Shown here: one piece after another, positions 9,756-11,374 of the stretch
Layout of the letters: every line of letters begins with the position of its first letter
How positions within the stretch are numbered: position 1 is the stretch's first letter
Source: Sulfuricaulis limicola
Lineage (GTDB): Bacteria; Pseudomonadota; Gammaproteobacteria; Acidiferrobacterales; Sulfurifustaceae
Assembly (NCBI RefSeq): GCF_002355735.1
Contig: NZ_AP014879.1
Span: forward strand, 496,001 to 560,000
Length of the DNA: 64,000 bases
Direction of reading: 5' to 3'
The notes under the pieces: model-generated
What the model was told of the DNA's origin: nothing
Seen by the model: the letters and a program-made list of their open reading frames with translations, nothing else
Database searches by the model: none
Made by a program: the position numbers and the translations under genes

Positions 9756-10126
9756 CACGGTGAAAAAATCCGCGCCGCGTCTGCAAAAATTGCCGACGTC
9801 GTTTTCATTCGTTTTTCATCGGCCTGAGCGCCTTGTTCTTCTTGACTTTCAAGGGCGACGCCATAAACTTTCCCGCGACCTGCTTCCTTGGAGATTCATC
9901 GGATTGAGCTCGGGGTTGCCAGCCACATCATCCCGTCCCGCGGGGCGACATCCCGCCCGTCCTTTTTCTTTCGCCGCATCGGTTTTCCCCCGTGTGAGCC
10001 GCTGTGCGCGGCAGGCCGCGACCTGTCCTCCACGCCGGCGCCGAAGCCGGGCGGTGACCGGGATGGAACCAGGGGAGCCAGTCGTTGCTCCCCTTTTTAT
10101 TGCCCAAAGCCGGAGGTGCCACTGAC
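9756..10126 (+). other. 371-base intergenic leader without a convincing gene
   Basis: Short open frames here have no ribosome binding site or family resemblance. The region holds a possible sigma70 promoter (TTGACT 9842-9847, 16-base spacer, TAAACT 9864-9869), several GC-rich hairpins (for example CGCGGC 10007-10012 with GCCGCG 10015-10020) and an intrinsic terminator at 10072-10098. This looks like a structured leader of about 250 nt for the downstream ParA-CBM gene, or a separate small RNA. I recognise no known riboswitch core. Confidence 0.45.
10072..10100 (+). terminator. Intrinsic terminator inside the leader of the ParA-CBM gene
   Basis: Perfect 7-bp stem GGGGAGC (10072-10078) / GCTCCCC (10087-10093), 8-base loop, then TTTTTATT. 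It ends only 26 bases before the start codon and upstream of the ribosome binding site, so it is either an attenuator or the end of an upstream transcript. Confidence 0.7.
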
Positions 10127-11374
10127 ATGAAAGTCATCGCGGTAGCCAACCAGAAGGGCGGGTGCGGCAAGACCACCACCGCCATCAATCTCGCCGCCTG
10201 TCTCGGAAAAAAGCAACAGCGGGTGCTGCTGCTCGATCTCGATCCGCAGGGACACTGTACGCTCGGGTTCGGAGTGTTCAACGAGGACGCACGCGATCTC
10301 TACGATGTCTTTACCGGCGAGATTACCCTTGAAGAAATCATCCTGCCGGATGTTTTCACCGGCGTGGACGTGGTGCCGGCCACCAAAACGCTGCAGGCCG
10401 CGGAGAACCTTCCGGTGCGCCGGGATGAACGCGACCGGCTGCTGGCAAAATACCTAGCGCCGGTCCGCGACCGCTACGATTACGTCGTCATCGACTGCCC
10501 GCCTTCGATGGGGCTGCTCTGTTTCAATGCGCTGGCGGCGGCCGACTTGGTGCTGATCCCGATCGAGATGAGCCTGTTCGGTATGCACGGCATCGATCGC
10601 ATGTACGAAATCATCCGCGAGCTGCGCGAGCGCCACGGGCGCGACATCCCGGTGCGCGTGCTGCCAACGCTGGTCGACAGCCGCACGCGCCTGTGCCGGC
10701 AATTCCTGCGCGAGATCGGAGAGCGCTTCGCCGACGACGTGCTGCCGGTGATGGTGCAGTTCACGGTGCGCCTGAAGGAGGCCACGCGCCAGGGAATGCC
10801 GGTCATTGCCTACGACCCTGCCTCCACCGTTGCCGTACAGTACGGTCGCCTGGCGAACGAAACCATATCCATGTTGCAGGACCATGCCACGACAGACGGC
10901 GCGGGCGAACTCGGGACCCGCCTTCCCGATCCCGCCGTTGCCGTGCAGCCCGACCACCCGGCGAGCGAGACAACGACGCCTGTGCTGCAGAGCGATGTCG
11001 CCACAGACGGCACGGGCGAACTCAAGCCTCGCCTTGGCACCATGAAGCGCGTTTTCGAAGAGGCGCGCTCACGGCTGAGCCGGCAAGGAGGATTGCAGAA
11101 GGTGGTGCTGCGCTTCTACGACTTCACCGGCCGCGACGTGAAACTCGCCGGCAGTTTCAACGACTGGCGACCGGATCAGGGCGTCGTGACCCGCACGGAA
11201 AACGGCGTCGTGGAGAAGATCGTGATGCTGATGCCGGGGACTTATCAGTATCGCCTGGTCGTTGATGGCCTGTGGCAGGAGGATCCCTCCAATCCCGAGC
11301 AGGTGCCGAATTACTCGGGAGGATACAACTCGGTCCTGCAGGTCGAGGAGGAGCACGAAACAGAACACGCCTGA
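10127..11374 (+). CDS. ParA/Soj-type ATPase fused to a C-terminal glycogen-binding (CBM48/AMPK-beta-like) domain
   Basis: 415 residues. Residues 1-250 are a ParA ATPase: deviant Walker A KGGCGKTT (10-17) with the signature Lys10, LLLDLDPQGH, and Walker B YVVIDCPPSMGLL. Residues about 250-320 form a low-complexity linker containing a 36-residue direct repeat. Residues about 325-410 (VVLRFYDF...VKLAGSFNDWRPD...PGTYQYRLVVDG.W..DP) match the early-set/AMPK-beta CBM48 fold that binds alpha-glucans. ParA proteins position cargo on the nucleoid; the fusion suggests that the cargo is a glycogen granule or another glucan-associated body, which is inference. The ATG at 10127 follows CGGAGG at 10111-10116; the upstream in-frame start would lie inside the terminator. 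No ParB or parS is nearby. The next gene is a hexose-6-phosphate mutarotase. Confidence 0.88.
   Translation: MKVIAVANQKGGCGKTTTAINLAACLGKKQQRVLLLDLDPQGHCTLGFGVFNEDARDLYDVFTGEITLEEIILPDVFTGVDVVPATKTLQAAENLPVRRDERDRLLAKYLAPVRDRYDYVVIDCPPSMGLLCFNALAAADLVLIPIEMSLFGMHGIDRMYEIIRELRERHGRDIPVRVLPTLVDSRTRLCRQFLREIGERFADDVLPVMVQFTVRLKEATRQGMPVIAYDPASTVAVQYGRLANETISMLQDHATTDGAGELGTRLPDPAVAVQPDHPASETTTPVLQSDVATDGTGELKPRLGTMKRVFEEARSRLSRQGGLQKVVLRFYDFTGRDVKLAGSFNDWRPDQGVVTRTENGVVEKIVMLMPGTYQYRLVVDGLWQEDPSNPEQVPNYSGGYNSVLQVEEEHETEHA
10829..11035 (+). repeat. 108-bp degenerate direct repeat in the ParA-CBM linker
   Basis: Two in-frame units starting at 10829 and 10937. The first encodes VAVQYGRLANET...TDGAGELGTRL, the second VAVQPDHPASET...TDGTGELKPRL. 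A linker duplication within the gene, the second unit slightly shorter. Confidence 0.65.

Follow-up and report, generated by a model that had tools for sequence, protein, structure and literature searches.

A conserved ParA-type ATPase with an AMPK-β-type glycogen-binding domain, a candidate for positioning glycogen on the nucleoid

Glycogen is a widespread bacterial store, and we know of no protein that holds it on the chromosome or shares it out there. A gene in the window, by which we mean the whole 64,000-nucleotide stretch of Sulfuricaulis limicola DNA that was analysed, encodes a ParA-type ATPase fused to a glycogen-binding domain of the kind found in the β subunit of AMPK. This fusion is a real, conserved and unexpected architecture, and the evidence for its connection with glycogen is good. 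The best single reading, which we regard as somewhat probable, is that of an ATP-switched link between glycogen and the nucleoid that positions or partitions glycogen. The presence of such a domain on a ParA protein suggests that the chromosome may serve some bacteria for actively keeping their glycogen in place or distributing it.

The fusion gene (positions 10127 to 11374; like the other features of the window given with coordinates here, on the forward strand) is conserved in the genus and beyond. It begins with an ATG just downstream of a GGAGGT ribosome-binding site (10112 to 10117), which is invariant in our leader alignment A7, and its product has 415 amino acids. A predicted model of the protein, built from 17 sequences, is confident for the ATPase domain (residues 1-255, positions 10127 to 10891) and again from residue 321 to about residue 409. 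The stretch in between (residues 256-320, positions 10892 to 11086) has pLDDT values below 50 and is taken as a disordered, flexible linker; the nine blocks of residues 321-410 reach 79-92. When the whole model was submitted to a fold search, the matches listed all fell over the ATPase part. The first-pass annotation had proposed a ParA ATPase, a linker and a C-terminal glucan-type domain in one 415-residue chain, and this is borne out by Pfam and the model. It had also described a repeat in the linker. This repeat is real, a duplication of 53 nucleotides (10872 to 10924 and 10983 to 11035, 77% identity, 111 nucleotides apart) that lies mostly within the linker, yet it is particular to this copy and absent from the 13 full-length relatives (375-385 amino acids) found with the whole-protein search.

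The ATPase domain is of the ParA/Soj type. It carries a deviant Walker A motif (KGGCGKTT, residues 10-17) and an IDCPP motif, and it matches the Pfam families AAA_31 (residues 1-171, E = 4.2e-53) and CbiA (E = 9.5e-22). Among 31 distinct fusions, 30 have KGGCGKT and one has KGGVGKT, the KGGxGK[TS] motif being part of the rule by which these sequences were extracted. In structural comparisons the modelled domain was most similar to Soj structures (Z 34.5-36.2; for Helicobacter pylori Soj, 6iub, Z 36.1 and rmsd 1.5 over 249 residues); McdA (Z 31, 23% identity) and FleN (Z 26.7-28.5) were less similar. The residue K227 contacts DNA in H. pylori ParA (PMC11229316). By the register of the alignment used, K227 corresponds to F212 of the fusion, a position occupied by Lys or Arg in none of the 31 fusions and by His in four, which counts against a simple nucleoid-binding model. 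Positions 215 and 217, close to F212, are basic in all 31.

The C-terminal domain (residues 322-409, positions 11090 to 11353) matches the Pfam model AMPK1_CBM (PF16561) over residues 332-409 with 47.2 bits against a cut-off of 26.8 (E = 2.6e-12), whereas the CBM_48 model (PF02922) stays below its cut-off (15.3 versus 22.4 bits, E = 0.025). Therefore, of the earlier description as CBM48/AMPK-β-like the second half stands: the domain, referred to below as the CBM, is of the AMPK-β type and, by the strict criterion of Pfam, no CBM48. A profile built from the CBMs of the family matches structures of AMPK β-1 and β-2 at E values of 1e-12 to 1e-10, among them the β-1 structures 1z0n (1.3e-12) and 1z0m (1.8e-12). 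In the AMPK β-1 domain, the exchanges W100G and K126Q abolish glycogen binding, and W133L weakens it (PMC6274970). Loss of the glucan-contacting aromatics had been named beforehand as a refutation of the granule-positioning proposal; instead, the equivalents of both W100 and W133, as aligned with 1z0n, are invariant in our alignments A1, A2 and A5. Of the 31 distinct fusions, all 31 also retain the second tryptophan as well as the NS-motif Asn; the first tryptophan was part of the extraction rule for this set, so that its conservation there is not independent. At the position of K126, 28 fusions have Arg, two Lys and one Gln. The CBM is retained in fusions down to 38-39% overall identity.

We searched 60 relatives with the whole protein and found both parts in 14 of them, the window's own genome included. 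These are all nine members of the window's genus, one member of another genus of the same family (G019) and four of genus g16, a further member of which (G037) gave no two-part match in this search. A 15th gene, in G039, is cut by the end of a contig, with the CBM out of view. In 369 genomes of the class, the CBM profile yielded 22 matches. Fifteen were strong (E = 5e-29 or better), 14 of them ParA fusions and one, in G136, a CBM without ParA; the seven weak ones (E = 1.2e-9 to 3.1e-5) lie in frames of 77-230 amino acids. A scan of a named genome collection gave 16 loci, every one a ParA fusion, three of which belong to Omnitrophota. Judged from sequence, ParA-CBM is thus a conserved family that covers the whole window genus as sampled, scattered other Gammaproteobacteria and three Omnitrophota. 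A tree was calculated from the ATPase domains of 31 fusions together with 17 further ParA rows. In this tree, a branch with 100/100 support separates the 31 fusions and the cut gene of G039 from 16 other ParAs. The 17th of the other rows is G039 itself, whose placement among the fusions causes the two label changes counted. With a midpoint root the Omnitrophota fusions adjoin the other ParAs, the tree fixing neither the root nor the direction of any transfer.

The fusion co-occurs with glycogen synthesis. Glycogen synthase (glgA) was detected above cut-off in 15 of 15 strong CBM carriers compared to 199 of 369 genomes of the class (hypergeometric probability 7e-5 if genomes are treated as independent and kinship is ignored, roughly 0.002 at the level of 10 families). 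Fusions in genomes lacking the pathway had been named as a refutation of the granule-positioning proposal; the strong carriers instead support the co-occurrence. Seventeen of 18 further genomes tested, including the three Omnitrophota, also have glgA above cut-off, the 18th (G003) having a fragment of it at a contig edge; this set includes G039, with its cut fusion gene and unseen CBM. A CBM_48 gene is present in all 15 strong carriers and was not found in G004, G008 and G039 (82, 79 and 71% complete), which counts against the positioning reading. In the window's genome glgA, glgC, glgB and malQ all exceed their NCBIfam cut-offs; glgA, glgC and malQ are close together, and glgB lies elsewhere. 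The class sample contains many glycogen makers that lack the fusion; the pathway thus seems to be required but insufficient. The sugar theme that the first-pass annotation had drawn from a neighbouring mutarotase gene holds for the window, L072 and L075, and is weak, as these are only three of the eight genus neighbourhoods compared by clustering; in L073 a fourth such neighbour is probably masked by an antisense ORF. The adjacency not being general, we rejected the mutarotase as a functional partner.

The best clue to partners of the fusion is a gene cluster that is invisible from the window alone. We compared 19 loci of Gammaproteobacteria that do not belong to the window's family, namely 18 fusions and the lone CBM of G136. 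The gene order in most of them is MerR, ParA-CBM, c2 and c1: 15 of the 19 have a MerR gene upstream in the same orientation, 17 have c2 downstream and 15 have c1. For MerR, Pfam bore out the assignment in all 11 cases scanned, while in L079, L080, L085 and L094 it relies on likeness; in L098 the sequence ends too near upstream to judge it. Where neighbours were tabulated, the gap between the fusion and c2 ranges from -107 to 52 bases. None of the three genes accompanies the fusions of L081 and L082 (genomes G137 and G364), next to which lies, upstream, a gene that we take to encode a UvrD/Rep-type helicase; L092 and L093 lack c1, and L093 also lacks MerR. In the Omnitrophota loci L045, L046 and L047 the neighbours of the fusion differ from those in Gammaproteobacteria, and neither MerR nor c2 nor c1 was seen beside the fusion in L045 and L046.

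Both c2 and c1 (example genes at L087:3057-4408) are families without a convincing Pfam match, the best E value over all members scanned being no lower than 0.03. Positions 120-197 of the c2 profile match FleN among PDB sequences at 8e-8. When the profiles of c2 and the fusion were compared directly, no clear match emerged (probability 0.6%); the label FlhG-like therefore rests on the PDB matches. No P-loop was found in any of 15 c2 sequences. In the 369 class genomes the c2 profile scored 2e-22 or better in 14, which are 12 strong CBM carriers, G234, where c2 stands at the end of a contig, and G387. Its other matches are weak, fall mostly on positions 115-199 in frames of about 280-390 amino acids, and presumably represent FlhG itself. 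The N-terminus of c2 is short and net basic in 13 of 15 sequences (0 in L092, -4 in L044; c2 rows alone, of which L084 starts at no known start codon) and is followed by a motif resembling RLAxISHHFLS. Known partners of ParA proteins are described as interacting with their ATPase by way of an N-terminus that is disordered and positively charged (PMC10241942), and on the strength of this parallel c2 is proposed as the release factor.

For c1, the predicted topology is helix, three strands, helix, strand. VIA-align placed the model nearest to NucS (Z 9.0-9.1, next best 7.2), with Z 9.1 and rmsd 2.8 over 104 residues for 2vld. The catalytic motif of NucS/EndoMS is defined as (E/Q)xK, and this motif was absent from the strand-3 columns in 12 of 12 c1 sequences. 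A search of c1 against PDB sequences gave at best a designed protein (E = 0.085), and Foldseek nothing better than E = 0.03. The likeness to NucS comes from VIA-align and a predicted model made from five sequences (mean pLDDT 75, five versions ranging from 50 to 75), and we consider it moderate. The c1 profile matched 12 of the 369 class genomes, i.e. ten strong carriers, G387 and G189. Partial clusters were also seen. G136, on a single contig, has a 146-residue open frame consisting of the CBM without ParA between MerR and c2-c1 (L085:7480-7920), while G387 keeps c2-c1 (L113) and G189 keeps c1 (L123), both without the fusion, as apparent remnants of the cluster. The parts are therefore separable, which counts against the positioning reading.

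The window's family has a conserved element of its own in front of the gene. A terminator-like hairpin (10071 to 10094) with a U-run, together spanning 10071 to 10100, lies just upstream of the ribosome-binding site at all 10 family loci compared, some of which differ in their upstream genes; 32 nucleotides separate the hairpin from the start codon. In the alignment all 59 of 59 cells pair, compared to 52-69% in slid versions of the pairing, and one pair is changed on both sides in two rows. Shuffled alignments reached the observed paired cells, both-side-changed cells and covariation score in 9 of 500 cases, the number of doubly changed pairs in 178 and the further pair types in all 500. Folding of the window's copy gave z = -0.81 relative to its own shuffles, and four other copies gave -2.0 to -3.2. 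A known riboswitch was rejected, as Rfam gave no match in the leader up to E = 5, and a promoter scan gave one match with 0.4 expected. One possibility is that the hairpin acts as an attenuator, replacing control by MerR.

How could such a protein work? In the positioning reading, the fusion would be a ParA-family ATPase with its cargo adaptor built in. The C-terminal domain would bind glycogen and the ATP-bound ParA dimer would bind the nucleoid via a basic face, so that the protein would bridge glycogen to DNA until ATP hydrolysis released it. Such a cycle would space glycogen along the nucleoid or divide it among the daughters. In lineages with the cluster, c2, as an FlhG-like pseudo-ATPase, would stimulate or pair with ParA and act as release factor, c1, with its nuclease-like fold and no catalytic motif, could serve as an adaptor to DNA or to a protein, and expression would be under the control of MerR. 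Profile searches found no c1 or c2 in the window's genome, so that hydrolysis there would have to be intrinsic, triggered by glycogen or aided by an unlinked protein. In support of positioning we count the domain matches and the modelled structure, the kept Trp and Asn residues, the co-occurrence with glgA, the CBM_48 gene of all strong carriers, the glycogen genes of the host, the separate ParAB, the one-sided tree, the cluster and the basic N-terminus of c2. Against it we count the non-basic equivalent of K227, the missing c1 and c2 in the window's genome and the many glycogen makers that lack the fusion. Moreover, glycogen and the nucleoid exclude each other in Escherichia coli (PMC12706056), and a nucleoid tether would need to overcome this, which likewise counts against it. 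The more specific proposal is a dedicated glycogen segregation system, in which the ATPase itself serves as cargo adaptor and, together with a pair of pseudoenzymes as partners, moves or spaces glycogen condensates on the nucleoid, both daughters inheriting glycogen without a deposit at the old pole. This we put forward tentatively, as it seems to fall somewhat short of probable.

The main rival to positioning is a glycogen-sensing regulatory ATPase, whose CBM would report glycogen to a ParA/FleN-like switch over transcription or over a glycogen enzyme, with nothing being moved. AMPK uses such a domain for energy sensing (PMC6274970), c2 resembles the regulator FleN, a MerR gene heads the cluster in most loci, and the conservation of the leader hairpin points to a tightly regulated gene in the window's family. 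The ATPase domain, however, is nearest to Soj/ParA (Z about 36) and less like FleN. The neighbouring genes are annotated in part, and a regulator partner may lie among them. Overall, we consider a sensing function unlikely. Still less likely is a CBM whose target is a glycogen enzyme or some other protein instead of glucan, with the fusion serving to cluster or anchor that enzyme. A glycogen debrancher binds AMPK β independently of glycogen (PMC6274970), and most fusions have Arg in place of K126; on the other hand, the tryptophans kept are those that AMPK needs for glucan binding. We rejected as very improbable that the fusion is a ParA for chromosome or plasmid segregation to which a passenger domain is attached. 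The 40% identity between its ATPase domain and the genome's chromosomal ParA could be cited for this. Against it stand a separate parAB whose ParB_N match (2850748-2851029, beside the chromosomal ParA and outside the window at 496001-560000) is the only one in the genome, in line with the earlier remark that no ParB is nearby, the empty search of 72,556 plasmid records for the CBM part, and the retention of the CBM in distant fusions.

If the positioning reading is true, this would be a ParA system with ATPase and cargo adaptor in one chain, which would be of use in studying the evolution of such systems. The fusion is a concrete, testable candidate for how some bacteria avoid glycogen at the old pole. 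In E. coli, glycogen collects there, displaces the nucleoid and renders division asymmetric (PMC12706056), and in a csrA mutant old-pole glycogen accompanies a short replicative lifespan (PMC4836754). A 2025 review of bacterial organelle positioning covers carboxysomes, magnetosomes, PHB and polyphosphate granules, and the word glycogen does not occur in its accessible text (PMC13052382). Nor did we find a ParA with a glycogen-binding domain described in the excerpted text of open-licence papers. What is new here is the cluster of MerR, ParA-CBM, c2 and c1, seen in 15-17 of the 19 loci compared in Gammaproteobacteria beyond the window's family.

The known systems each share a part of this arrangement. 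The ParA/Soj proteins of ParABS (6iub, 8jmj and 8ray), which are among the best structural matches, have the same fold and the deviant Walker A motif; the fusion differs from them by KGGCGKT, the non-basic equivalent of K227, the extra C-terminal domain and the missing adjacent ParB. AMPK β shares the glycogen-binding domain and its key tryptophans, but is a eukaryotic kinase subunit, and its K126 is mostly Arg in the fusions. As for the cluster, c2 is similar to FlhG/FleN over part of its profile but has no P-loop, and c1 resembles NucS/EndoMS at the level of the modelled fold but has no (E/Q)xK at the expected strand. McdA-McdB, which positions carboxysomes, likewise relies on a ParA-type ATPase, and the fusion would in the same way place a metabolic body on the nucleoid, although its cargo binding would sit in the ATPase itself and McdA is more distant in structure. 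To our knowledge, PhaM, PhaF, PhaH and AlgP are no ParA ATPases, and their cargo is PHB or polyphosphate, not glycogen. They are tethers in which, as would be the case here, one protein joins a storage granule to DNA, their ATP dependence being given as unknown (PMC13052382). We propose that the ParA-CBM system falls between tethers such as PhaM, PhaF and AlgP and the gradient of McdAB.
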